NCBI RefSeq assembly: GCF_037975245.1
Contig: NC_092578.1
Coordinates: forward strand, 14,676,321-14,740,320
Direction of reading: 5' to 3'
DNA length: 64,000 bases
From: Apostichopus japonicus
Lineage: Eukaryota > Echinodermata > Holothuroidea > Aspidochirotida > Stichopodidae
Shown here in pieces: positions 14,575-60,237 of this stretch; position 1 is the first letter of the stretch, and the number at the start of each line of letters is the position of its first letter. Below the pieces are notes generated by a model. It was not told the DNA's origin. It saw only the letters and a list, made by a program, of their open reading frames with translations, and ran no database searches. A program made the position numbers and the translations under genes.

Positions 14575-14830
14575 TGAAATCGTAGTGAGTTGAAAAATCC
14601 AGAATAATGAAAAATCTTCCAGCCTTCAACATGATTCGAACCCAGTCCTCCCGCTTTATTTGCGGACACCCTAACCACTACGCTATGAACGCTGATTGTG
14701 TGCCCAGAGGTTCGAAACCGGTAAGGACGGTCGTAATTCCACTGTAGGCGTTTGTCACCTGTATCGAACAATACTACTTCTGTTTTGGTGACAAAGTTTG
14801 CCTTACTCTAGACATCAAACATGATGCTAA
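14575..14830 (-). mobile_element. tRNA-derived SINE-like repeat, copy 3
   Basis: Reverse-strand relative of the pair at 6.1-6.7 kb, more diverged; the tRNA-like part (CTAACCACTACGC on the plus strand is its A-box complement) and the ACGCCTACAGTGGAATTACG body are recognisable. It abuts a TA/CA array at 14495-14575. Confidence 0.7.
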
Positions 14831-14839
14831 CCAACTCGA

Positions 14840-17655
14840 AATCATGTATATGCATACGTGTGTATGCGTGAGTGTGTGTTTGTGTACATTATATAATTTG
14901 TAAAACTCTTGCAATATGTTAAGCTCGTAAACGACAGCAATAATAATTTATAAACGAAATGAAATTTGTACACACCTCTTCTTCAGTTGATATGAATCCA
15001 CGATGGTCATAAACTTCGCACCTGGTAAATCTCCTCTACCGTCTGCTACTGAACTTGAGATAAACGCTGTTGATTTGTATGTTTGATATACTGTTTGGCT
15101 ACCAGCAAAATTTCATCGAATATGTAATCACAGAAAAGACTATGACAGCGTCATAAATAGTATATGGGCACGCAGAGTAAATGTTTTACTTCAATTAAGT
15201 TTTTTATTATCCGAGATGTAGCTGTAACCCGATCGTTGAACCGTATCTGTTCTATAAACATTCCCAGTAAAGCACACGACCACATTTGACAAATGGTTAT
15301 GACTGAACTTCTGACAGCAGTAGTTCGAAAACTGCATTTATATGAAAGACCAGTATGTATTGGCACTGACCATAAGAATTTGAAGAACGTCCAAAAACCT
15401 TGTGTGACAAACAGATAGGTCTATTACTTGTCGTAACCATCTGTATATTATTTCGGTGGATATATCTGTTCTGTTCCCCCCTTCTTTATCTAAATATAGG
15501 ATAGAAATCTCCGTGTACTGTGCAAGCCTGATTCATCGACTGTCCGGGGTGTCTCCGCTTAACATGCGCTCGAACCAGATTGCTCTCTGATATTCACCGA
15601 TGTTACTAAATGTAAGGGCCGATATGAATTTTAAGCACTTGTTGTTCAGATTCACTAGAAATTTGTCGATATATTTTAAGACGGCAACAATGTATGTTGT
15701 ACCGCTGTACAAACCATATGTATATAGTAAAATGTCACTCTTTGGCTTAGAGCAGTTCGCGTACATGTTATATAAAACATGGAGCTAAATGGCGATCTAT
15801 GCATATACATACATACAGAACAATTCACGTGACTCGCGCAATCACACTTTCAGTTCTTGGTGAGCAAAATTTAGAGCTCGTATTAAAAGTATGATTATAG
15901 GTAACATAAAGTTCCACACACATTGACTATACTTGAAGTAACAGTGCATACGAAATACGAAATCCCCACCCACCAATTATATTGAGCTTTGATGGTACAA
16001 TATTTATACGTGTTGGGTCGGTGTGCGGGTGGATATGAGTTACTGTTTTCTTGTATTGCTCTCTCTATTTCTTTATGGGAGCGCTCTACTAGACAAGCCC
16101 TCTGGATTTTTTGGAGTGCTTCCTTTCAAAATTTTCCCTGTTGTTAATATCTCTTGTCACTTAGTTAACTTCCTGTATTTATATTGTGAAAAAAAAATGA
16201 AATGAAATGAAATATTTGAAAATCTTGCGTCCTTTGATGTACTACATGATTTGTCTATCATATTTTCTTCATTAGATCCATAACTAATGATATTGTGGTT
16301 GACGGATGCAGTATATATAGTGTGAAAGCTCAACTTATTTCAATGAAAAGGATAATTTGTGAATCAGCATGGCACCATACGGTTGACCAAAAGCCATTGT
16401 TAACAGAGCAACTATAGAAGTACTGCATGAGGCCTGATGACGTCATCTTGCACAATGTCGTCCGTATGTCTTCTGTCATTGGTCTGAAAGGTCAAATGTC
16501 ATCGGAATATAACGTAATGGTCACTCATGTTTACGTCCAACAAGTACCACTTGGCATCCAGTGGTCAAACCTTATACTCTCATTAATATATGGCAATAAC
16601 TTGCTGAGTCCGAAAAAAAGAGAACCTTTTATTTCAGCATTGATTGATCTCAGATTTGACTTTTACATAGTAAAACACATACAAACTTTACACTATAGCT
16701 TCAATATTTAACACATAAGGAAAATTGAATAACACAAACCTAAGAAATCGCTCTAGCCTATTCAGAAACGGGCGCTTAATGAACTACATACATTCCCGGC
16801 TTTAATATGTGATCGTGTAATTAGGAGTCGCCTTCCGCTTTCCATGCACAAACGATATTTGTCTTGGGCTTTCCTAAGTGACTTTAAAAGATTAAAAGAA
16901 AAAACACTAACGGATCCAGGAGCTTAAAAATGAGAGGGGGCGGGGTTCGCCCTGATTGTGTTCAAGCCGACTCCAATCCAGGAGTATATGGGTAGTTGGT
17001 ACTATCCTACCCTCACACCCCCCCCCCCAAAAAACATTAATAATAATAAATAAATAACATTTATTTGTAGTCATCCAATGGTGCTTTTGGAGACTTTTGA
17101 GGTCTACACACAAGGTGGTGTTAATTTAGTATACCTTTGAATGTTCTGCGTGTTGAATAAAGGCTGAGGGTTGGATGAGCTTCGATCCGCATCTGACTAA
17201 TGTAATTTTTCACTTCTCCCTTACTCGATACTCTTTTCAAGTCACCCCATTTACTGCTCACTCGTACCCTTCCTTCTACATAATACTCCATGTTTATGCC
17301 ATTAGGGTCACCTTGCGAAGAGGATCGATGCGGCAAGAAAACCAGAAAGTTCCCTGAGTTCAGAACAGCAAATCTCTGAAATATGTTATGTCGGTCAGGG
17401 TAGGGGTCTAATCGGAGGGTACCCATCCTCTTAGAAATGCTGGTAAAATGGAGGGTGCTTAGATGCAAAATGGTGCTATATTTTACAACTTGTTGAAGAA
17501 TTTTCGACTGTTTAGGTTGTACCGCACATTTGCCTAAATGTTGTATAATTATGTACTGTATGCCTACACTAAAGGATTTTTGTTTTTAACCAGTGCAAGA
17601 GGGGGAGGGGAGCTTCCTGGTTTCTGTCTGGGTAACCCACTCCTTTATCGAATTA
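14840..17655. other. No convincing gene; two weak minus-strand exon candidates
   Basis: Minus strand 15090-14976 is open between an AG acceptor and a gtgtgt donor and reads TAFISSSVADGRGDLPGAKF in part. Minus 15600-15540 reads EYQRAIWFERMLSGDTPDSR then stop after a possible acceptor. Neither matches a family I recognise and they cannot be joined. The rest is AT-rich DNA with a diverged family A relative near 17390-17630. Confidence 0.3.
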
Positions 17656-21100: not shown

Positions 21101-24100
21101 CCGCCCAGTGTTCGATTTTTCCGGTATCGCATCGCAAAATGCGATCCAAAACGACAAACTTGCGAGACGTTTCCAAATCAGCATCGCACTTTCTGCCGAT
21201 TTGTGCGATACAAATTCTTAGTCAGATTTGGGAGCAAACACTCAAACCTTAACTTACGAACTGTCGATCACAATGTAAAAGTCATAATTTATTGAGTTTA
21301 TACTCAATGTACAACTTATCGACTTGACCGTATAGCGAAAAAAACCCTGAAAAAATAATATCCTACCATAGTTAAGTGTAAAGCAAATAGCCTAACCACC
21401 TCGGCGGTTACAGATCTCACGTAACTAAAAGGTTCCCTGGCAACGTGCCAAAAAATGTTAACAAACAGGTGTTATACAGGGGATGAGCTCACAGTTGTTG
21501 GGAAGGTACCTGGGCAAATTCGCAGCACATGTACCGTGGTACAGTAGTTGGGTAAAGGGTTAAACACTGCAGTTGTAAAAATGTACGCATAGTGCACGCT
21601 ATTCATTGTTAGGCAGTCTAGAAACGGGGCTTTGCTGAACGTTGTTTGTTTCATAATATTGAAGTTTTGTAAGTTGCACTTTTTAAAGATTGAAAGACAG
21701 ATTAAATCTCTTTTCATTTTATAACATAATACAGCTACTTTAACTTGTCATTTTAAAATTTTCATCAGTTTCGTGACAATTTAAATAAAAAAAGTTGTCA
21801 GTATTTTGCATCCTCAACTGCGAATTTTTTCATCGCCAGACATCGCAAAAAAAGACAACAATTTTCGGGGGCTTTCGCCCCAAGGATCCCCACGAGGGGT
21901 TCTACCCCGTGACCCCACCATAACCCTAAGATGGGCCCCTGGACACCACGCCTTTATGCTCGCACGTTACGCGTGCTAGGCAGGCGAACACCGGCGGGAA
22001 ATCGGCAGTGTGTTCGCGGGAAATTGAACAAGGTTTTCCAACACTGCTGAACTGTGCAGTTACTGTATGCATCATGTTCAAGGTTTTCACGGAGGCCTTT
22101 GAGGAAATGAATGGTTAGTACAGTGTATATATGCTGCACTAATGCTGTGTGTAGGCCAAGGTTCACGAAGGTCAATGGTTATATTCGCGCGCCATAGACG
22201 TGTTTTTAGATGTTACGGAGAGTCAGGTTTCCATGGATATTAATCGAAAATGAATCTGAGTTTAACTGACGCTAAAGAAATGGATCGTCTTGGGCAGATT
22301 AACAAATCATTGCATGTATAAATAAGTACAGGTAGCTCTGCTGTTCAAAAGAAAAGTTCAATATCGGTTTGCTGTTATCGGCAATTAGGCAAAATTTTAC
22401 CGATACCGATATGCTGCCGATATTGCAAATATCGGCCGATACCGATATTGAAAACGATTATCGTAGCCATGGGCGTCAACAGGTGGGGGACGGGGGGGAC
22501 ATGTCCCCCCCACTTTCAAAAGTGGAGGGGATATCATATCATTTGTCCCCCCCCCCACTTTTCAGAGCAGTTATTAAAAAAATCACATGCATATGCGCGA
22601 TTTTCTATCACAATTGCTGAGCTGATTCAAGTAGAATCTAACTTAAGAATCATTATCAATAAATTGCACTGGAAATTAGAACAGTGCTTGGCCCTTTATC
22701 CCCCTTCCTCCGATATTCACCCTCCCCGCTTCGTCCGAGACCTCTGATAAAAGTTTGTGCGATGTTTGAACGATGTTTTAGAGTGTTTTGTGGAAGCACC
22801 CCTTCTCGCCAGAAATGGAATTCCCCTTGCCCTACACTGTGAATCAGAGAAAACGACGCATTTCAACTTGAAAACAAGTCGAAGACCCCACCAGGAAGGT
22901 AATATCATATATTTTAGGCCCTACAGACAGTATTCTGCCTGTATGCAGGGTATTATATGATACCAAACTACCGAAAATATTTCGTTTGAGATGGACGCTG
23001 TGTAATTCGTTTCCCTTGGTGTCAGAACGGCATCTTTCTACCAGTACTTTCTGTCGGAATTTAGTTTTGTGAGACAAAATTTCTCCTCACAGATCTGGTT
23101 CTGATTTAACTAAAAACGACTCAGGAAGGCCGTCTCCTGCGATCTAGGGGGTCTTATGTACCCAAAATTTTCTGGTACGCTACGCGCCAACCAATGGTGG
23201 CGCTCCGCTTAGATAGTATAGTGTCCCCCCCACTTTCTGAAACCTGCTGACGCCCATGATCGTAGCAACACTAGTATAAATAATAATAATAATAAACAAA
23301 CATTTTCTAGTTAATACATTGATCCCCAACATTTGGTCAGTTTTGTGGTAATTTCAAAACTGCTATTCAATATTGGGGAACTGCTATGCAACAAAAATAT
23401 TGTACAGCAATTGTCAAAATTTGTTGCTATGCAATTTTTTGGCCATAAGTCGAACACTGCTTCCGCCCCTCCACATTTTTCACTGGGGGGGCTGGCGCCC
23501 CCCAGCCCCCCCCGGTTCCTACGCCCTTGTGCTAGGATATATTTTGCAAAAAGTAATCTGAACAACTGTTTAAGCAGTGGTTAAATACTTGTGTGTTCAA
23601 CAAGTATATCTTTTTTCCAAAAGCTTTGAGCTAATCTAGTGCATCAAGTGTTTCTATATGTGAAATTGAAAGATATTTTGACCATAAGATCAGGATTCCG
23701 TTGAAACCTTGTTACTATTAGGTAGGCACCCTTTGCACGAGTGATTGTTTGGCCCTTTTGGGTGTACCAAGGTGGCATGAGCGACCTTCAAATATAGCTC
23801 TGCAAAGAGTATTGTTGTCAGCAGGTGCGATGTGGCCTCTATGTCATGAATAATACCACCATACATCCTACTACCTACCAATCCTACTCTTTTACCTAGA
23901 TGGAAACTGGAAGCTTTAAGTTCTATTTGTTTTGCTGCATTATAATCAGTTTGTAACTTAAATGTTATGTGATTACCTTTTATATTTGTGGTTTTAAACT
24001 TGAAGCAGGCATTTACTCTGTTATTAAAGCACCGATCAATTATATATATCAGAGAAAATTACACACATTTCGATATAGGCTACGTAGGCCTATGTTGTCT

Positions 24101-30462: not shown

Positions 30463-31254
30463 CATGGGCGTCAACAGGTGGGGGACGGGGGGACATGTCC
30501 CCCCCACTTTCAAAAGTGGAGGGGATATCATATCATTTGTCCCCCCCCCCCCACTTTTCAGAGCAGTTATTAAAAAAATCACATGCATATGCGCGATTTT
30601 CTATCACAATTGCTGAGCTGATTCAAGTAGAATCTAACTTAAGAATCATTATCAATAAATTGCACTGGAAATTAGAACAGTGCTTGGCCCTTTATCCCCC
30701 TTCCTCCGATATTCACCCTCCCCGCTTCGTCCGAGACCTCTGATAAAAGTTTGTGCGATGTTTGAACGATGTTTTAGAGTGTTTTGTGGAAGCACCCCTT
30801 CTCGCCAGAAATGGAATTCCCCTTGCCCTACACTGTGAATCAGAGAAAACGACGCATTTCAACTTGAAAACAAGTCGAAGACCCCACCAGGAAGGTAATA
30901 TCATATATTTTAGGCCCTACAGACAGTATTCTGCCTGTATGCAGGGTATTATATGATACCAAACTACCGAAAATATTTCGTTTGAGATGGACGCTGTGTA
31001 ATTCGTTTCCCTTGGTGTCAGAACGGCATCTTTCTACCAGTACTTTCTGTCGGAATTTAGTTTTGTGAGACAAAATTTCTCCTCACAGATCTGGTTCTGA
31101 TGTAACTAAAAACGACTCAGGAAGGCCGTCTCCTGCGATCTAGGGGGTCTTATGTACCCAAAATTTTCTGGTACGCTACGCGCCAACCAATGGTGGCGCT
31201 CCGCTTAGATAGTATAGTGTCCCCCCCACTTTCTGAAACCTGCTGACGCCCATG
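30463..31254 (+). mobile_element. hAT-like MITE (family C, copy 2)
   Basis: 792 bp, same termini as the copy at 22468-23258 and almost base-for-base identical (a single substitution, gatttaac versus gatgtaac, and one C-run length change were noticed by eye). The target duplication is CCCCCTCC (30455-30462 and 31255-31262). It lies between the two ACBP genes. Confidence 0.92.
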
Positions 31255-35100: not shown

Positions 35101-38100
35101 AAATCAATATATGCCTGTCCTCACCTGAAATCACATAAGAAAAGTAAGTAGAAATCCGTATATAGGACTTCATAGAGTTGAGAATATCAAGTTAATAGAA
35201 ACTTGTACCAACCGAAATTAATGGAAAAGCAAATGCAGCAAATCAAATTATCAAATGGATTTAATCAATATCAATAACCACACATGTGATCAATATCATT
35301 TTATACATAAAAAAAAAACCAAGTGCATAATTTTAGTTTAATATATGCAAGCATGAGCGTCCTCATTTTTACCATTTCCTCTTTGTTCTCTAGTTACCGT
35401 ACTATCATAATAAGAACTATGAAAATGGTCATGTAAACAAAAGTTGAACATATTTTGACACCGAGAAGGAACCACTTTACGGTCCTCATCCATTCCGGGT
35501 TTTCTTGGTCTTTTGCGGCGAAGCGAGAACTAATTGCAACGTAGGATGATATGACCACGCCCTCCACTAACAGCCATACGACATAGCCACCTGTAGAAGG
35601 AAACAACAGCCAACACTCTTTTAGTGATTGGTAGTGCAAAAAAGAATGCAACAGTTACGTCAGTCACCTGCTTACGAAAATATAAAACGTGATGTGCATG
35701 AACTAGAAATTTCAGCCATCTTAAAGATCATTATTATTGCCCCCCCCCCCCCACACTCCCGCAACATGCTTAGAAGTCCCATAGTGATCCCACGTGTTGA
35801 CACATGAACAAGAATGTTACTACCATCCTCAGAACATTTTTTCATCAATTTGCCTTGGTGCACACTCCCCCGTGTCAGGACCTTCAGTGGAAATACTTTT
35901 TGGTTTCGATGATAATCGTAACCTATATGCATTCATGCTGGCGTGTGTGTGTGTATGTACGTGTGTTATGATCCCATATTTTGTGTCCCATAGTACATTA
36001 CTGAGTACAAGAAGTCTTGTTGTTTATAGTGGATGTCAAAGGTTATTTGGTGTCACCAGTGGTCAAATTGTGAAAACCTTGTAAACACGATATTTCAAGA
36101 AGAGAAGCTTGGACATTTTTTTATGTAGGAGAACCATATTAAGGACAATAAGCCTATTGGTTTTTGTGGAGGTCAAATGTCATTTGGGGTCTTCAGAGGT
36201 CAAATTGTGAAAACATTGTAAACAAACTATTGCAAGCAGGGAACCTTGGACAGATCTCATATTTGGATTGCAGATGGACCATATCAAATTTAAGGAGCCT
36301 GTCATTGCCTTAGATCGAGGTCAAAGGTCATCTGAAGTCAACAAACGCCAAAAATTTATTTCACAAGGGAAGCTTAAACAGATCGCATATTTGGTATATA
36401 ATTATACCACATTGAGTACAAGTAGCCTATAGTGTTGTGACCGAAGGTCAATGGTCGTTTGAGTTCACCAGGGATCAACTTGTGAAAACCATGTTTAACA
36501 CAATATTTCAACAATGTCAGATGTCATATTTAGTATGTTGATGTATCACATTTAGTACAAGAAGCCTGTTGTTGAGGTCAGTAGTCATTTCAGGACAGCC
36601 TGTGTCATACATTGTGAATTTATTGTTTGTCACATCACACTGCTTTTCAATGTTATTACTAAGATCAATTATGTTGTACACCCTCATTAAACATTACGTC
36701 TAATCCATGACGAAAAATGTTCATCATCGAAACCACAATGCATCTTGGCATTCTGGTTAATACTCCAAGCAATTTTGAGCTCGCTGAATTTAAGCTCAAT
36801 ATTGATGACCATTAACTTGATAGTTTCCCAACTGCTAATTTCACTTCCCATGAGGTTCACTTGAGTCACTATAATAAATGTTATGGTTAATGTTCTATAT
36901 GAACTATTTATAGAGATTTTCGTCTTCTACTCAAATTATTTGTACCTTTGCCCCGAATCTTATATGCAGACTAACCTATAGTATAGGAACTTCTGTTATG
37001 AAATTTGCAGCAAGTATAGCTGAAGTGTTCATATTTACTTTGATATGTAACATAGGCACCCAGACACAGGATTGGGATTACGCGGGGCTGGGTAGAGGGG
37101 GGGGGGGTGGTGGCAGAAGACAGACACATTTCTGTTAGGTTATGACCTTTACATGATGTATTGGCCTTATTTGTAAAAGGCATTGCTGTGAAAATTATTA
37201 AGGGAATCATCCCACCCTCGTACCCCACCCTCGTATTCCGCCTCCCCCCCCCCCCCCCCCCTTCGAGTTGTCCGACGCTCTGTAGCAGATTCTTCGAGAA
37301 GATCAAGCATCCATTGTGATATTAATGCTGCAAACAAAGAACATATTTTCCCTACTGTTCAATTGTATGATGAGAGAGATTAAGTTGCAGCCAACAAACA
37401 AATGACATACCAATGATGGCTTGCCCGGCAGATGGGAGTTTGTTAAATAAGAAACTAAGGAACACAAAGAGAAATGCCATACCAATGACGGGTTGCTCGG
37501 TATATTGGAACTTGTTAAATAAGAAACTAAGGAACACGAAGGAATATGACATACCAATGACGGGTTGCCCGGTAGATGGGAGTTTGTTAAATAAGAAACT
37601 AAGGAACACGAAGAAATATGACATACCAATGACGGGTTGCCCGGTAGATGGGAGCTTGTTAAAAAGGAAGCTAAGGAACACGAAGAGAGTCAAGATACAG
37701 CTCAAACTGAATGCCGCTGCTTTTGGATCTGGTGTCCGAGGGAGGCAAAGTGCCAACGTGGTCATCGCTGACATCACCAGACACGGAAGTATGAGAGCCA
37801 TGAAATGTAACGACCTTTGACCTCTTTTGAGCTTTAACACGTAATGGATGTAGGACTGTTCCTCGCCCTCGCAGCTTGCGCAGTCGTAGCTATTAGCGCC
37901 AACTTCAACTAGCTCGATATCCAGACTCCATAAGCCGTGTTTTAATGCATACTTCTTGTAAGCATTTTGATCAATGAGGTCTGTAATTTTCTCAAATTGT
38001 TGCTGTATTAAAGACGTAGAAAGTATGGTAGGCATTACAATGTAATGCATAACTGAGGGATCAATGACGCAGTATTGTAGGAAATCCAGAAGGTTTAGTT

Positions 38101-40078
38101 ACTATGATGTATAAGTTAGGTTCTGAAGAAGAGTAAAGTGATAACTTAATATTATACTTAATGATGAACGCTATACATTTCTAAGAAGAAGAAAAAACAC
38201 TTATACGTTATAACTAATATAAAGTATGGGACTGGACAAGAGTAAAGCGATAATTTCATTTTATTCTTATTCTCAAAAGAGATTTCTCATGCCAGACAGG
38301 AAGCAAGGGCGTAGGAACCGGGGGGCTGGGGGGCGCCAGCCCCCAGTGAAAAATATGGAGGGGCGGAAGTATCATTCCGCCCCCCCCCCCCGCTTCGCAA
38401 GTCAGAAAACCCCTTTTTCATTTCCAAATGAGAAAAAAAAATCTCATTTGGAGCACCAAATTGCATCTAAGGCCAGTTGAAAATGCAAAATTATATACAA
38501 AATGGAGTGGGTGGGTTGAAGTGTGCTATATTGCACCAAATTGCATCTGAGGCCACCTGGAAATGCAAAAGAATTCCAAAGGGGAGGGGGACACCCCCTC
38601 CCCTTAGACCCCTCCCCCAGGCCGGCCATCAGTCTTCAGCCCCCCCCCCCCCACACACACACAAAAGTACCTTCCTACGCCACTGACTGTACGTGTGAGC
38701 CTCCGCTCACGTATTGGTCACATAGGCTATTCAAGAAAACATGTCGGTTTTGGCGCGTAACTACAAACGTTTAAATTGTATACGCCTTAATGTCTAACAA
38801 ACTGCGTTAGTCTTTGTGTGGCGATACGCGAATCCCCACATAAGGACTTGTGAATATTGTCGGTATTTGGCGATCAATATGTGGCAATGTTAGGATCGCA
38901 TGATAAGTAAAATGTTCTTGTTCATTACGTGGAGATGCTATTAGTGCCACATAGGGACTTAAATTGTTCTTGGTCATTATGTGGATATAACTTTGTATTC
39001 ATATGAAGACCTAGGTTTACATAATTTTTCTGCATATTTGGCGGTTTTGGCGTCCCATGGTGATCGGCTCGTAGTAAATATACTTACTTCTCCAGTTTGG
39101 TAAAGCCATGTAGTAAACGTGAGATAGCAGATCTGTTCATCAAACGGATAATATCGTACGGATATTCTGCAAAAGGACTCAAAATTAGCAAGCGTATACC
39201 AGTACACCTGTCCTGTGTATTCCAAGGTGATTGATGTAGTCTCCGGTTGAAAGCTTCTCGGACCTGGTGCAATGCTGAATGGAAAGTTTGATATCAACAG
39301 GGGAAATGAATGTGAAATAAAGCATTGACTAAATCCGTTCGGCTATACTTTTCACCAATTAAGAACTGGATTTATTTTTTAAAGTAAATTTTAAATATTT
39401 GTTGGGTTCATAGGGTTTCCGTTGCGGAAAACTTCGATGCCAAATATGCCGCCATATTACCCCATAGGCTCAGTGATCAAATTTCCCAATGTTAACTATA
39501 TATGGTCTATCCCCTTCCCTCTCTTGTGATTCTAACAATGTCATTTACATGTTCTACTGTGTACTTCGCAAAGAAGGCAGTCATGTAGATGAAACAGGTT
39601 CTCGGTTCCGCTTACGTTTCAATGATCACAAAAAAATGTATTCGCGTGATAATTTTGTAAGATTTCCCGTTTCCGAACATTTCAATCTTCCGATAGACAT
39701 TCTCTCAAAAACCTTAATTGCCTCGAACTTCAAATCATCTTCTGAACGTAAACGTAAAGAAATCGATTGTATCTTTCGTATTAAGTCTCACATCACTGGC
39801 CTCAATAAAGACCTGAGACCCCTAAACCACCAGAAGTTACAAACATATGTAATCCGTTCTTCCTATTCTTTGCTCCTTGATCCGCTTCCTGTATAGTCAT
39901 GGTTTATTTGGTTCTATTTTCATCAATGCAACACATATATCTAGCATCATACTTTCATTGTGTTACATTTTGTACTTTTTCATTCCACTGCCAAGTATTG
40001 CTGACGAAGGTCCAATGGGGACCGAAAATTCCAATTATATTTTCTAAAACAATACTCCTTATTTGTCAAGTATGTATG

Positions 40079-40109
<31 letters not shown>

Positions 40110-43100
40110 ATACATGCTAAAATATCGTGCGGTCGAATTCACAGACAGAGATGTGCTATCACAATTCTGTTAAAATACAAACTGAAACATCAGGCAAATG
40201 AAAGCCACAATACGTCATATTTACGTCATATCACTCACCTCTCGTTAAGCACTAACTCTGGTTGCCAAAGAAGGCCTTCTCCACTTCCCGATGATAGAGG
40301 GAGTTTTGTCTTATTGATACCCTCGTAGTTTTCTGGTTGCCATGTCAACTGGGGGTCGCACCAAGTCTGTCAGTGAAACCAAGCTAAAATCGACAAGTCT
40401 GGCTTCATAATGATGTTCAAATATAGGCCTATGCTCTGAACGATTGATTAAATATAGGCTAATTTAAGGCTGGAAAGTATTTCTTATTTGGAACAATGAA
40501 ATAATGCAAAGTTCTTAATTGGTTATGAATACTACAATCTTAATGTAGTAATTAATAATAATTTGACATAGCTTCATTTTAATATTATAATGAGAACGTT
40601 ATTTATGACATTTCAATCAATAAGGAAGAATATCCAACGTCACTTACCAAAGCTACCATTCCTCGCAGTTGGAGATGTTGTTCGATTTCATTCTTCAAGA
40701 AAATTAAAACATAAATATTACGCAATTATTGCTCAATCACCCGCTGATCGTCAACCACCTCCCCAGCCCCAATCACAGTGCATTGTAAACGTCCACCTCT
40801 CGCACTTGATATCTTCAGCATGCGGTTCATCAATTTTTGTCAGAATTTGCCAACCATTCCTCCCCCCCCCCCCTCCCCTCAACATGTAACATGAGGGCAA
40901 TAAATTGAGTTGCAGATCTCATCTCCTCCATGACGGAAGTGAATGTAAGGTTACTTCTGAATGCATCTTCTTGTCATCTCAAAATGTAATATTTCCCATT
41001 TTCTCAACATATCTTTTGCTTTAATGCCTTTTCCATACTGACAAGCAGGTGATGGCTTAAGCAAAAGTTTTGAGGTATTTGACCTCTGACCGTTGACCTA
41101 TACGTCACCAATCACGCAGATAGAGTTTTCATGGTCAGGCACCTACCCGCCAAGTTTGAACTTGATCGGACTTAATTAACGCGGTCTAGAAGGAGTTCGC
41201 GACACACTTCTTTGCTCACGCACACACACGCGCGCACACACACATCCTCACTTTTCTGTGGGGGAAGTGGGGTGGGGTGGGGGAGTACATTACGTCATCT
41301 CCCCTAAACGTTACATTTAGGGATATGATATAATACAAAACAGGTAAATAATATAGAATCACACGCTGTAGGTGACGCCTGAAGCTGTGATTACAATTTA
41401 CAGAAATTATACTCGCGGTCATACATGGTCAGTCACTTATTTTTTAATTGATTTGTTTGTGCTATATACTATTCCCATGAAACAGTGGTCTTTACTTAAG
41501 TAACCATATACAAACTTGTTAGGAGGTGTTTGGGTGGTGGATGACATTTCGGACGTTCAAAATCACTTCCGAAGTAATAATAGATACGTAATATTAGAAA
41601 TAATATTGGACACCTTACGTGGCCCTCAGAACGTTCTTTCAGATGTGCGCGACGACCTGGTCTGACCAGGGGAGGGGGGGGGGGGGGTTGAGAGTGATGA
41701 GCGAGGGCGAGGGGGAAATGAAGCGTACCTAAAACAAGGGGACCTTGGTATACAATCGTACAATGGGCCCGACCTTTCTCTCGAGCGAGTGAGACAAGGG
41801 GAACATCAATTTTACCATACTATTCAACTATGCATGCATGTAAAATGCAATATTAAAAACTCAGATAAATACTGACCAGAACAGAAATAGTTGGCGTAAA
41901 ACGATAGCCAACGATGACTGGTTTCGATGTGTCATTTACAGGTCGTAAAGAAGGCTCGTAACCTGCCATCAGTGTTTTATGTAGCTCCCGAAGTACATCT
42001 CGACTTGCACACTCAGCTATTTGAAGACGAGTAAATACAACAAGATCATAGACGGGAATAAAACAAATTAAAGAGGCGGGGTGGCCCTGTGGAACCAATA
42101 TTGCCTCCGAATTACCCCCCTCCCCCCCCTCCTCACAGGGAACCACCATCGGTGTGAACGTCATTTTCAATTGTTATCACTGAGACATGTCAATCTCTAA
42201 TTGATCCACAGTCTGTGGCGTAACCAGCGTGGGTTTTTTTTTTTGGGGGGGGGGTGGGGGTCATATGACATCGGTTGGCAAAAACAGTATAAAATGGATT
42301 GAAAGGCTCAGTTAAAACCATTTCGCGGTTGACGTTAATCCTTAATTGACTGGAATTATCAAAGTAATACAAGCCAATTACGTCTTAAGTTAAATATTAT
42401 CCTATTTGCTTGTTTGCTTTCTGTCATTGTTACCAACCCCCTCCCCGATCCCACCCATCCTTTGGCAACACACGCTACCCAACAACTAACGAGATAACGT
42501 GTGGATCACAACGTATTTAGTAGTGGTGTCAGAGCTATAAATAAACTGCAAAAAGAACAACATGAAAACTACGTTTTATTAACGGCTTCAGGAATGAAAT
42601 TAATACGCAATATAGTAGTGAAGGTTAAATACGTTAATCAATATATCTGTATTGTCCTAAATCTAGATATATACATGTTATTTACATTATGAAATACTAG
42701 GTAAAGTGAAAATGGTACTTACCTTGATTTGGCAATATATGTAAAAGCACAAAACAATTAAAGAGGAAATTATAAGGCATGTTGAAGACTTTTAATCTGG
42801 TAAAAGTGTTATACTCGGTACGTACTGAGCGTAAAGCCAACACCCCGATATAGACATCAATTTTATATGTTCTTTCTAATTCAGACGTTAAACGTCAAAA
42901 CAAAGAGGGTTGAAGATAAAAGCTTTTAATTACAGTTTTCAAGTACATATAAATTCTTTCAGTATACACTTAACGTCAGGAAGCTATGTTTATTGATTAT
43001 TATGTATCACTTTCGTGGTAAGGAATCGTGTAAGAGCCGTTACAAATTCAGTTTACTGATCGGTTATTTCCATGCATCCAAGGTGATTCTTTGGTGGTCT

Positions 43101-54300: not shown

Positions 54301-57300
54301 GCTCGCCTGCAGGCTTAAATACAGAAGCATTACACCTCAGAGAAGCAGATGGGGTGGGGAAAGGAGTGAATGGATTGAATTGGAGATATGCAGATGTGAA
54401 AATTGTGTAGTATCGCTATCGTGTGACCAAATGTAAAGTTAGACCTCTTATTATAAGTTTATAAGATAATTTAATTGTTCGTGCAAGCCATTAGTCAGTG
54501 ATTCAGTCGTAGACAGTTTTTAATTTGTAGATGGAATAAGATATTACCTCTCTATATATATATTTTTTACATATTTTTTTTTTTCATTGCTTTCTTCATA
54601 AAGATGGGCATCTGCGACGGACTGTCCCAATGCACCGACGGTTCTGACGAATTTCATTGCGAAGTACCCTTAACAACAGCTGAAAGTTCATCCTGTCCAG
54701 TCCTCTGTAAGATTGGATCATATATGCATTGTTTACCGCAGAACAAAAAATGTGATAAAACAGTGAACTGTTGGGATGGCTCCGATGAAGAAGATTGTCC
54801 GACGACTGCAAATCTACCTACCACGACCACCACAACACCAACGACAACTACATTTTGTGATGATGGGTTTTTCATCTGTGTAATTGGAACATATTCATAT
54901 TGTTTATCGAACAGTAAATTATGTGATCAGGAACAGAATTGCGACAACGGTGACGACGAAAAAGGATGTACACCACCACCACAGTCGATCACAACCACCA
55001 CTCTACCAACCACCACTCTCCCAACCACCACTCTTCCATCCACTACGACTATACCACCAACAACATTCGTGTGCAGTGATGGTTTTTTTATTTGTGTAGT
55101 TGGTACATACACCTATTGTTTACCGAACAGTAAATTATGTGATCAGGAACAGAATTGCGACAACGGTGACGACGAAAAAGGATGTACACCACCTCCACAG
55201 TCGATCACAACCACCACTCTTCCAACCACCACTCTTCCAACCACCACTCTTCCAACCACTACTCTCCCAACCACTACTCTCCCAACCACTACTACGACTA
55301 TACCATCAACAACATCCGTGTGCAGTGATGGGTTTTTTATTTGTGTAATTGGTACATACACATATTGTTTACCGAACAGTAAATTATGTGATCAGGAACA
55401 GAATTGCGACAACGGTGACGACGAAAAAGGATGTACACCACCACCACAGTCGATCACAACCACCATTCTACCAACCACCACTCTTCCAACCACTACTCTG
55501 CCAACCACTACTACGACTATACCACCAACAACATCCGTGTGCAGTGATGGGTTTTTTATTTGTGTAATTGGTACATACACATATTGTTTACCGAACAGTA
55601 AATTATGTGATCAGGAACAGAATTGCGACAACGGTGACGACGAAAAAGGATGTACACCACCACCACAGTCGATCACAACCACCACTCTACCAACCACCAC
55701 TCTTCCAACCACTACTCTTCCAACCACTACTCTACCAACCACTACTACGACTATACCACCAACAACATCCGTGTGCAGTGATGGGTTTTTTATTTGTGTA
55801 ATTGGTACATACACCTATTGCTTACCGAACAGTAAATTATGTGATCAGGTACAGAATTGCGACAACGGTGACGACGAAAAAGGATGTACACCACCACCAC
55901 AGTCGATCACAACCACCACTCTACCAACCACCACTCTTCCAACCACTACTCTTCCAACCACTACTCTTCCAACCACTACTCTACCAACCACTACTCTACC
56001 AACCACTACTACGACTATACCACCAACAACATCCTTGTGCAGTGATGGGTTTTTTATTTGTGTAATTGGTACATACACATATTGTTTACCGAACAGTAAA
56101 TTATGTGATCAGGAACAGAATTGCGACAACGGTGACGACGAAAAAGGATGTACACCACCACCACAGTCGATCACAACCACCACTCTACCAACCACCACTC
56201 TTCCAACCACTACTCTTCCAACCACTACTCTACCAACCACTACTACGACTATACCACCAACAACATCCGTGTGCAGTGATGGGTTTTTTATTTGTGTAAT
56301 TGGTACATACACATATTGTTTACCGAACAGTAAATTATGTGATCAGGAACAGAATTGCGACAACGGTGACGACGAAAAAGGATGTACACCACCACCACAG
56401 TCGATACCACCCACAACGACCACTTTGCCAACCACCACTCTTCCAACCACTACTCTTCCAACCACCACTCTTCCATCCACTACGACTACACCACCAACAA
56501 CATCCGTGTGCAGTGATGGGTTTTTTATTTGTGTAATTGGAACATACACATATTGTTTACCGAACAGTAAACTATGTGATCAGGAACAGAATTGCGACAA
56601 CGGTGACGACGAAAAAGGATGTACACCACCACCACAGTCGATCACAACCACCACTCTACCAACCACTACTCTACCAACCACCACTCTTCCAACCACTACT
56701 CTTCCAACCACCACTCTTCCAACCACTACTACGACTTTATCACCAACAACATCTGTGTGTGATGATGGTTTTTTTATTTGTGTAATTGGAACATACACAT
56801 ATTGTTTACCGAACAGTAAATTATGTGATCAGGAACAGAATTGCGACAACGGTGACGACGAAAAAGGATGTACACCACCACCACAGTCGATTACCACCAC
56901 CACTCTACCAACCACCACTCTACCAACCACCACTCTGCCAACCACTACTCTTCCAACCACTACTCTTCCAACCACTACTACGACTATACCACCAACAACA
57001 TCCGTGTGTGATGATGGGTTTTTTATTTGTGTGATTGGAACATACACCTATTGTTTACCGAACAGTAAATTATGTGATCAGGAACAGAATTGCGACAACG
57101 GTGACGATGAGAGGGATTGTCCAACCACACTAACATCTATTCCACCCACAACAACCGTTTTGCCAACCACAACATTACACCCAACAACAACTGCAGTGTG
57201 TGGTGATGGGTTTTTCATTTGTCTAATTGGTACATACACATATTGTTTACCGAACAAAAAATTATGTGACCAGGAACAGGATTGCGACAACGGTGACGAC

Positions 57301-60237
57301 GAAAAAGATTGTCCAACCACACCAGCAACCAACCCTCCTGTGACAACCACGTTGCCACCCACAACTGTACTGCCTACAACTACATCAGTTTGTACAGATG
57401 GCTTTTTCATGTGTGTGATTAATACATTTAAATACTGCTTACCGAATAGTAAAAAATGTGACCTCGTACAGAATTGCGACAATGGTGAAGATGAAAAAGG
57501 ATGTGCAACAACATCTTTTCCTACCACGATGTTGACATCACCTTGCGGAGAAGATATCGTCTGTCGAGTAGAGAGCTTCCTTTACTGTTTACCACAAACT
57601 AAACGATGCAACGGGAAAATGGATTGTCCTGACAGATCCGACGAAGAGAACTGTGTAACAACGGCTCCTTCGAGATCCACCACGGTCACTACCGGATCCA
57701 TCTGCGACTTTTTCACATGCCAAGGGAATGGTCAATGTGTGGACATGGTAGATATATGTAATGGTGTTGAAGACTGTCCATCAGGAGAAGATGAGGATGG
57801 CTGTCCCACACCTGTGCCATGCGTCTTCGGACAATTTGAATGTAATGACGGCACGTGCATCCCTGTCTCACTTGCATGTGACGGAACCGCACACTGCCCT
57901 TTCTCGGAAGATGAGCTGAATTGCCCGCAAGAGAATTGTCCGAGTAAATTCCGTTGTAAGAGCAACGATGGTTGTCTTCAAGAGATTGCATGGTGCGATG
58001 GAGTCGATCAATGCGAAGATGGCTCTGATGAAGAGAACTGTGGTTCATGCGGTGCTGGCCAATTTGCTTGTTCCGCTTTTGGAATGTGTATAGAACGTTC
58101 GAAAGTTTGTGATGGTCGACCGGATTGTCCAGGACCCACTGACGAGGAGGACTGTACGGCAATTGAGCCGTGCGTTGGATTCTTCGATTGCCAGAATGGG
58201 TATTGCATTGATATATCGAGTGTCTGTGATGACGTCATGGATTGTCACAATGGTTTTGACGAGAATGATTGCGAGGGGAAGAGAGGAGAGTCTGTGGAGG
58301 ATGAGAAAGATACATGTCAACACTATTGGGTAAATTCATGTGTTTCGATGTTGATCTATGTTAATTCAAAAGGAATTTACTCCATTTTAATTATTCTTCT
58401 CCCATTGATATGCATGTGTTTTATTGTATATCTATGTTTGTGTCATTGCTTTAAATTTTTTCGACTAGTCAACGATAGACCCAAACGGAAGGTAAGGAAG
58501 CATTTTTACTAGAAAGGTCGGAAAAACACATTATGCTTGGATGTTAAGGGTTTCATTTTATCTCGTAGGTTTTTTATTTATTTTTATTTCTAAGAGTACC
58601 CGATAAAATTCTGATTTGCGAAATGTTATCATTCTGGAAATCGTATGTGACATTTTTTTAAGGATTAGACTGAAAAGACACCAGATCAAAAAACATCAAT
58701 GACATTTTTAGTTTAATATCGGCCTGTTCCATTTGAATGACGTCTATGAACTAATGGGTTTTCAGTTTTATCTTCGCTATCAGACGAACGTGAAAAGTAA
58801 GAAAAGATGCAAAACTTTTCAGTGATGACCTTTGACATTTGACCTTTTGACCTTACTTTGCATAATTTGTTTTGTTTTCAGTGTAACAATCGATGTCTAG
58901 GTTTAACCCAGATTTGCGAAGGTCGTCTGGATTGTGGTGTAGACTTATCAACTTCATGTGGCTTCCGCCAAAACGGTAAACCTATTTTCTCTTACTTTTA
59001 TACTTTTTTTCAGATGCAATTCGTCCGATTTTAGTCATAACAAAGAAATATAAAGCTATTCATTTGATCTTTTATCACTATAGGAACTTCAAAAACGGAT
59101 TTCCTTCTGCATCTGATTGATCTTGTTTAGGTTATTAACAAACATTCATTAATTCCTTTACCTTTCTTTAACTCTCATTCAATTGGTTATTGTAGTTGTT
59201 CTGTGCAAACACGTTACCATTTCTTTCCTTCCTTTTCTAATATCTTCTTGTCTTTTATGATTACAGAGGAAACTGACAAAGAAACACTGGACGAATTATT
59301 GCTTGAACTTTCAAACTCACTGGAATCTGTGAAGAGGCAGAAAAGTAAGGATGATATTATAAAAGGCAATTAGAATTAACCGGAAGTATAAACAGAATAA
59401 TGATCACCCATTTTTAAGCTTCCATCAAATAATTTGATCTCACGTACAAGTCATTTCTCTTTTCATTCTAATCTTAAAACTTCTGTGTTTTAAAATATCT
59501 CAATATCTAGAAATGCATCAAATCATAACGACGAAATTATTTCCATTACAAACATTTTGACGGTGAAATATGAGCAGATGTGACGTGTAATTTCTCGTGT
59601 TAATATAAATTCTTTCGTTTTGAAAATTTAATTCAATGACGCCTTAATAGTTAAATAAGATAAGTTAATTGAAGTCTTTACTTTACATCTACAAACTATA
59701 TTACAACAGAAGAGAAAATTAATTAGAATTGTGGTTTGCTTTGCAATTAATTTAAAATAGTTTGCAATTAGTGGCATTCCTAAACACATGGAGTTCTCTA
59801 CTAGCTCCCTGTGTAAAATATCTACGGATAAAAAAAATCGTTTCACATTCAATTTGCTGAATTTACGACGCCGTTCTTCTTTTCTTGTCTCTCTACAAAT
59901 GGGTGGATATTGTTTGATTCCTTAATAATTTTATGTGCAATATTTGGTCTATAAAGGTAACACTCAGAAGATGACGAAAAAGTTGGCAAAGCAAGTGGCC
60001 GATGAAGTTAGCATTCGACTTCAAACCCAAAGAGACGATGACGACCAGAAAGAGAAAGGGAACAATATTGAAAAGAAGGGTGACGAAGTTAGTGACGTAA
60101 GAGGGGAGACTCCCGGCCACCTGTCTGACGTAATCGCCAAGAAAATAGAGATGACGCAACCACGGGGGGATAAAGAGACACTAAGAAGACAACTGAATCT
60201 TAAAAACTTGTTGGAGAAACGTTTTGACGGAAAATGA
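48350..60237 (+). CDS. Multi-LDLa extracellular protein with mucin-like Thr/Pro linkers (ten exons)
   Basis: Secreted or cell-surface protein of about 25 LDL-receptor class A modules, Ca2+-binding Cys-rich folds that usually bind ligands. Exons: 48350-48457 (signal peptide RILVYFLFYVLL), 49482-49548, 50235-50413, 51606-51746, 52524-52704, 53905-54044, 54604-58329, 58882-58975, 59267-59344 and 59957-60237. All AG/GT junctions agree in phase, giving 1664 aa. Modules: five across exons 3-7, one more early in exon 7, twelve near-identical units with Thr/Pro linkers (54856-57504), six diverse units (from 57544) and a last one split by the 58329/58882 junction. Ca2+-site signatures such as CDNGDDE and CEDGSDEENC recur. 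The C-terminus is charged and Lys/Asp/Glu-rich with no transmembrane helix. If the 58330 donor is not used, the reading frame runs to a stop at 58512 and gains a membrane anchor (1574 aa). No named orthologue recognised; linker O-glycosylation is inferred from composition. Confidence 0.88.
50490..51260 (+). repeat. GATGGTGA-rich low-complexity region in LDLa gene intron 3
   Basis: Purine-rich, with many diverged copies of GATGGTGAGGATGG-like words and a GGGGGGGG run at 50833. It looks like an old, eroded minisatellite. No coding potential. Confidence 0.7.
54856..57504 (+). repeat. Coding array of twelve LDLa + Thr/Pro linker units
   Basis: Each unit starts with C(S/D/G/T)DGFF and ends with a GDDEKGC-type Ca2+ site, followed by a linker of repeated LPTTT. 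Units 1-10 are nearly identical at DNA level, including silent positions; units 11 and 12 are diverged. Successive units start 219 to 264 bp apart because the linker varies by steps of 15 bp (consensus CTTCCAACCACTACT), giving about 2 to 6 LPTTT blocks. Two repeat levels are therefore present: the ~230-bp unit and the 15-bp linker block. Unequal crossing-over or gene conversion is the likely cause, and length polymorphism is expected. Confidence 0.95.
58330..58512 (+). CDS. Read-through extension of LDLa exon 7 encoding a transmembrane anchor (alternative C-terminus)
   Basis: Past the 58329/58330 donor (TTGG/gtaaat) the frame stays open for 60 codons to TAG at 58510-58512. It encodes a strongly hydrophobic stretch (SILIILLPLICMCFIVYLCL) followed by a short basic tail RPKRKVRKHFY, the layout of a single-pass type I anchor with stop-transfer charges. 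The spliced alternative joins in phase to 58882 and completes an LDLa module. No AATAAA was seen between 58513 and 58880, so polyadenylation of a read-through mRNA is not evident. Both forms are inferred. Confidence 0.5.
   Translation, partial: VNSCVSMLIYVNSKGIYSILIILLPLICMCFIVYLCLCHCFKFFRLVNDRPKRKVRKHFY

Follow-up and report, generated by a model that had tools for sequence, protein, structure and literature searches.

Four copies of a 72-bp segment stand in tandem across an exon-intron boundary in a Cys-loop receptor gene of the sea cucumber Apostichopus japonicus, each copy with its own 5' splice site and all of them in one reading frame. We believe this is probably an old boundary-spanning tandem duplication in which donor 1 makes the functional mRNA, while units 2-4 are passengers in the intron that give rise at most to minor ladder isoforms. 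The duplication is real and well defined, and its most likely state is neutral.

Our argument for how this state arose has three steps. The 3' end of the TM1-TM2 exon, together with the first 11 nt of the intron, was evidently duplicated in tandem and amplified to four copies, as the repeat itself records. The copies remain in frame, since their length of 72 bp is divisible by three and every one of them carries a donor. Functional mRNA would then come mainly from donor 1, which restores the join common to the paralogs, and units 2-4 would lie in the intron and drift there; both points are argued from the selection pattern and from homology. It is the conserved protein join and the pattern of constraint that lead us to donor 1 as the dominant site. 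The donors are nearly identical and all weak, so occasional use of donors 2-4 is probable. Such use would probably produce a minor ladder of mRNAs with 24, 48 or 72 additional residues, whose products are most likely non-functional.

The array and its four donors

The window, by which we mean the whole stretch of 64,000 nucleotides that was analysed, contains the array at 37400-37687 on the minus strand (288 bp in total). A preliminary description of this DNA had claimed four tandem units of 72 bp, and Tandem Repeats Finder (TRF) confirms them with a row at 37400-37688, period 72, 4.0 copies and 87% matches. Each unit is made of 61 nt of exon end and 11 nt of intron start, and the last exon bases of donors 1-4 are 37627, 37555, 37483 and 37411, exactly as had been claimed. 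Unit 1 (37616..37687, minus strand) is the native exon end of 61 nt followed by the 11 nt past donor 1 (GTATGTCATAT), and its donor yields a join without inserted residues. The other three follow on the same strand: unit 2 (37544..37615) has its donor past 37555 (GTATGT), unit 3 (37472..37543) past 37483 (GTATGG) and unit 4 (37400..37471) past 37411 (GTATGT), after which comes the native intron. Donors 1, 2 and 4 read TTG/GTATGTCA and are identical from -3 to +8. Donor 3 reads TTG/GTATGGCA, with a G at +6 that puts its gtatgg one base off gtatgt. The claim that every unit ends ATTG/gtatgt is therefore right for three of the four donors and wrong for donor 3.

From 38098 onward the frame meets no stop codon in any of the four units, and the first one lies at 37354-37352, so the units do share one phase with no stop between them, as first described. 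When spliced to the acceptor at 35590, all four donors join in frame and give products of 190, 214, 238 and 262 aa, counted from the TM1-TM2 exon onward. The inserts from donors 2, 3 and 4 are 24, 48 and 72 residues long, and the expectation that successive donors would add none to three in-frame inserts of 24 residues holds for every join. A DNA search of the genome (671.6 Mb; 671,581,487 bases in 35 contigs), which passes over simple repeats and very common words, found the array DNA at a single place, which is the array itself.

Tandem arrays can be mis-assembled, and one could argue that this one is an artefact of assembly. However, the units differ from one another at 5-11 of their 61 exon positions, so 288 bp should resolve easily. 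The published A. japonicus assembly was also made from PacBio HiFi reads with a mean length of 14.7 kb and 64x coverage (PMC10344927). The paper gives that assembly as 671.60 Mb (671,643,915 bases) in 34 scaffolds, which is near but not equal to the genome searched here. We give the idea of an artefact almost no credence.

Other features were seen elsewhere in the window and the genome. An open frame of 1336 aa, measured stop to stop (54502-58512, plus strand), has many cysteine repeats resembling LDL-receptor class A, separated by threonine-rich repeats, and TRF reports a period of 249 over 54992-57107. An identical open frame of 80 aa lies at 22844-23086 and at 30840-31082 (minus strand), and the adjoining frames are common to both places, which suggests a dispersed repeat present twice in the window. 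On contig C29, a COX1-like run at 14745-16086 (minus strand) is in order but broken into several frames, and a second partial COX1-like piece lies at 30842-31219 (minus strand). These are perhaps a nuclear or mis-assembled copy of mitochondrial DNA. Contig C35 (16,099 bases) begins with COX1, followed by ND4L and COX2 by our reading of the translations. Its COX1 is open under tables 5 and 9, and table 9 (echinoderm) gives the usual COX1 residues.

The host gene and its paralogs

The host gene reads as a divergent nicotinic-type Cys-loop receptor on the minus strand. Its N-terminal exon region (41856..42068, which are open-frame bounds and not splice bounds) matches the paralog regions L045 and L047 in tblastn. 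A ligand-binding-domain exon ending in ELVLNE (40239..40366) lies between an acceptor ACTGACAG and a donor GTGAGT, joins in frame to the next exon and matches L045, L046 and L047 (tblastn). That next exon (39088..39274; acceptor CCATTCAG, donor GTAAGT) also belongs to the ligand-binding domain and contains the Cys loop, with two cysteines 13 residues apart; it joins in frame on both sides and again matches L045, L046 and L047 in tblastn, three of the four paralog regions. The exon that encodes the end of the ligand-binding domain, TM1 and TM2 (37627..38002) has an AG acceptor before 38002, ends at donor 1 in phase 1, and joins in frame on both sides. The last exon (35394..35590) encodes TM3, a very short cytoplasmic loop, TM4 and the stop. 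Its acceptor before 35590 is ...TTCTACAG, it joins in frame with all four donors, and it has homologues in three of the four paralog regions fetched. The exons at 40366-40239, 39274-39088, 38002-37627 and 35590-35394 have AG/GT inner borders, one frame and a single terminal stop, so the gene is not evidently dead.

Several comparisons bear on the family of the gene. The ligand-binding domain scores 93.2 bits against Pfam PF02931 (cut-off 26). The query for this score was joined by hand and, as a small error, included RSNFPF at an exon boundary, residues missing from the spliced product. The transmembrane part matches PF02932 with E 7.2e-5 and 23.6 bits, under the curated cut-off of 28.1. The donor-1 product shows four hydrophobic peaks. 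With the donor-1 join as the only phmmer query, the exon pair finds nAChR subunits among PDB entries (best E 4.5e-8, epsilon subunit), and the alignment spans TM2, the loop and the beginning of TM3 with no insertion. From the nAChR alignment each unit takes in the outer part of TM2 together with the TM2-TM3 loop, in agreement with the earlier placement of this exon end in a Cys-loop channel. We take the unit to start at about position 12' of TM2 in the prime numbering. The GEK motif found before TM2 in nAChR subunits is absent, and PDPKAAAF stands there instead. Its absence weakens an assignment as an acetylcholine or cation channel, but not membership in the wider family.

Two further regions of the receptor were noted. 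In the loop C region (37855-37895, minus strand) there are two cysteines spaced by two residues; the alpha subunits of nAChR have an adjacent pair in loop C. These cysteines and the missing GEK may point to an unusual ligand and ion selectivity. The TM3-TM4 cytoplasmic loop (35394-35590, minus strand) is very short, with 22 residues between the hydrophobic windows, and the gene ends directly after TM4. The matching last exon of paralog regions L044 and L045 aligns across this loop without a gap.

Searching the genome at the protein level returned 38 matches, the window's own among them, and the best paralogs are 57-60% identical and belong to a cluster on contig C20. We fetched 29 paralog loci; 24 of these have an alignment that reaches the exon end, one of which (L025) is mis-registered. 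A GT donor motif follows the same phase-1 base in all 23 in-register paralog exons. Running TRF on 30 loci, the host gene and its 29 paralogs, gave 15 rows with a period of at least 20. Only the one in the host gene (L009) crosses the donor, and none of the 29 paralog loci has an array of period at least 20 across it. Within this genome a single donor is the usual state at this boundary, with the array seen in this gene alone. The family itself is large, with clustered Cys-loop-like genes on contigs C1, C8, C13, C14, C16 and C20 and 91 PF02932 exon matches in the genome. Those on C16 (15-17 Mb) and on C20 (11.75-11.85 Mb) appear only when this gene's own exon is the query.

Constraint on the units and competition between donors

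Substitutions between units were counted by eye. At three exon positions (18, 22 and 24) unit 1 has a base found in none of the other units, and each of these differences is synonymous. Among units 2-4 there are 11 variable exon positions, 9 with replacements and 2 synonymous; the replacements in unit 3 include L-F, P-Q, S-Y and G-E. We fitted codon models to 20 codons with three C20 paralogs as outgroup, assuming equal codon frequencies and leaving gene conversion out of the model. A single class gives omega 0.17 (lnL -210.86). With two classes omega is 1.78 within the crown of units 2-4 and 0.029 on the branches outside it (lnL -200.76), for an LRT of 20.2. The other two unit topologies give 18.5 and 18.6. 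Of 222 parametric bootstrap replicates simulated with a single omega, none reaches 20.2 (95% point 3.8, maximum 10.0). Adding L016 and L017 makes the result weaker (omega 0.109 vs 1.50, LRT 10.6, p 0.001). Fixing the crown at omega 1 costs 0.56 and is not rejected. Placing the stem branch in the crown class fits nearly as well (LRT 19.9), so early synonymous changes on unit 1 and on the ancestor of units 2-4 are not separable. The low omega outside the crown comes mainly from the paralog branches, and the outgroup is saturated, with a stem of ~4 neutral-scaled substitutions per codon. The contrast between units 2-4 and the other branches is strong under these models, but its exact size is not. 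Units 2-4 appear to be under no protein-level constraint, with an omega of 1.5-1.8 that is not different from 1; a value above 1 would also be compatible with diversifying selection.

The shared phase of the four donors and the open frame between them could be taken as signs of a copy-number-dependent isoform generator, in which every donor is used and the resulting channels, bearing 0-3 inserts, have a role at the gate. The near-equal predicted U1 pairing of the donors fits this idea, and alternative splicing of the TM2-coding exon 8 in the insect nAChR alpha6 provides a precedent (PMC2064938). However, the open frame is expected by chance. The insert is a copy of coding sequence kept in its original frame, and freedom from stops is therefore the default. 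Of weighted point changes in the insert, 3.2% create a stop, and the probability of no stop is about 0.6 (0.57-0.65 for 17-13 changes, 0.57-0.72 for 17-10). The open frame across units 2-4 is no evidence for their use. Units 2-4 at omega ~1 or above argue against functional inserts, as does the lack of such an array across the donor in the 29 paralog loci. Each insert would also place a hydrophobic segment between TM2 and TM3, where it is expected to disturb the topology. The insert peaks are 1.47, 1.23 and 1.87, compared to 2.35 for TM2 and 1.81 for TM3 (19-residue Kyte-Doolittle). The added stretch would sit in the loop that couples binding to gating, and we infer that most insert-bearing subunits would not assemble or gate normally. 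We consider the generator very improbable. A bolder version holds that subunits with 0-3 extra copies of outer TM2 and the TM2-TM3 loop alter gating or act as dominant regulators, with a dose set by repeat number. If so, omega >1 in units 2-4 would be diversification of the inserts, but we find this version very improbable.

The preliminary description had left the isoform generator and a neutral duplication with only one donor in use side by side. We favour the second, with one main donor, over the first since units 2-4 show no sign of constraint on the protein, the in-register paralog exons have one donor motif where donor 1 lies, the 29 paralog loci have no array across it, and the inserts would bring extra hydrophobic segments into a conserved join.

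A more serious objection concerns which donor would be the main one. Predicted U1 pairing is -5.3, -5.3, -4.7 and -5.3 kcal/mol for donors 1-4, against -6.4 to -11.9 kcal/mol for the 23 in-register paralog donors. By this prediction all four donors are weak and alike, and the one that is used is not readable from sequence alone. With donors 1, 2 and 4 identical around the splice site, the core donor gives no preference for donor 1, and U1 duplex energy does not separate these three. Equal or better U1 scores are reached by intronic GT sites at 37229, 37216 and 37224 and by an exonic one at 37778, so the measure is a crude one. When duplicated donors compete the intron-proximal donor often wins, which would favour donor 4. 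This preference is the main argument against donor-1 dominance. It raises the scenario that donor 4, or several distal donors, dominates, so that most subunits made from the gene carry inserts and are probably inactive, leaving the gene in effect on the way to loss. Pairing weaker than at any of the 23 paralog donors would agree with such a loss. The four consecutive exons in frame with one terminal stop argue the other way. The synonymous differences specific to unit 1 also look as if unit 1 were the constrained copy, although the branch on which they occurred is ambiguous. We think dominance of donor 4 is unlikely, and donor 1 remains our preferred main site.

We also considered small introns spliced to cryptic acceptors in the array itself, CCTTAG motifs whose last bases are 37599, 37527 and 37455. 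These were rejected because donor 1 is only 28 nt from the next acceptor, too short for a usual animal intron, and the longer candidates (100 and 172 nt) would connect phase 1 with phase 2 and lose the frame.

The array amounts to a natural competition experiment between four donors, with nearly identical sites at a fixed spacing of 72 nt. Substitutions of their own distinguish the units, and RNA reads could therefore serve to measure how the spliceosome ranks tandem donors. The array also illustrates how a boundary-spanning duplication can persist, with no loss of frame, a protein restored by splicing from the first donor, and further copies left to decay in the intron. Regulated use of the later donors in RNA would be needed to give the finding further interest.

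Comparison with known systems

The insect nAChR alpha6 exon 8 is alike in that duplication has produced splice diversity at TM2 of a Cys-loop receptor (PMC2064938). Its variants are called mutually exclusive (PMC6393475), and they are whole alternative exons that keep length and topology, whereas the later sea-cucumber donors would add residues. In human segmental duplications, internal tandem repeats at exon-intron boundaries alter gene structure, and for 66% of the intron modifications of this sort a transcript retaining the repeat in the exon exists as well (PMC2812944). Intron gain by tandem duplication is also reported, as in the case of the potato RdRp (PMC4974935). These human and intron-gain cases create new introns; the sea-cucumber intron instead gained extra donors.

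Two duplications in the human CBS gene come closer. The 844ins68 variant resembles the array in having a duplicated splice junction, in two copies and not four. For this variant the splicing machinery shows a strong preference for one of the duplicated sites, and the mRNA made is normal (PMC2630376). The paper writes of 'splice donor sites', but by our reading the intron 7/exon 8 junction is the acceptor side. The second duplication is the 31-bp VNTR across exon 13 and intron 13, c.1444_1467+7(16_21) (PMC2630376, PMC1395315). As in the sea cucumber, its unit combines an exon end with the start of the intron (24 nt and 7 nt, respectively, in the nomenclature used), so that a donor is possible in each unit. 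The CBS unit is present in 16-21 copies and is polymorphic in people; the sea-cucumber unit is 72 bp, in four copies, in one assembly. The sea-cucumber unit has a length that preserves the frame, unlike the 31 bp of CBS, and the host gene is different as well. The downstream donors of the CBS repeat are reportedly used at a low level. Judged by its layout, with exon end and donor together as the repeat unit, the sea-cucumber array belongs with the architecture of the CBS 31-bp VNTR.
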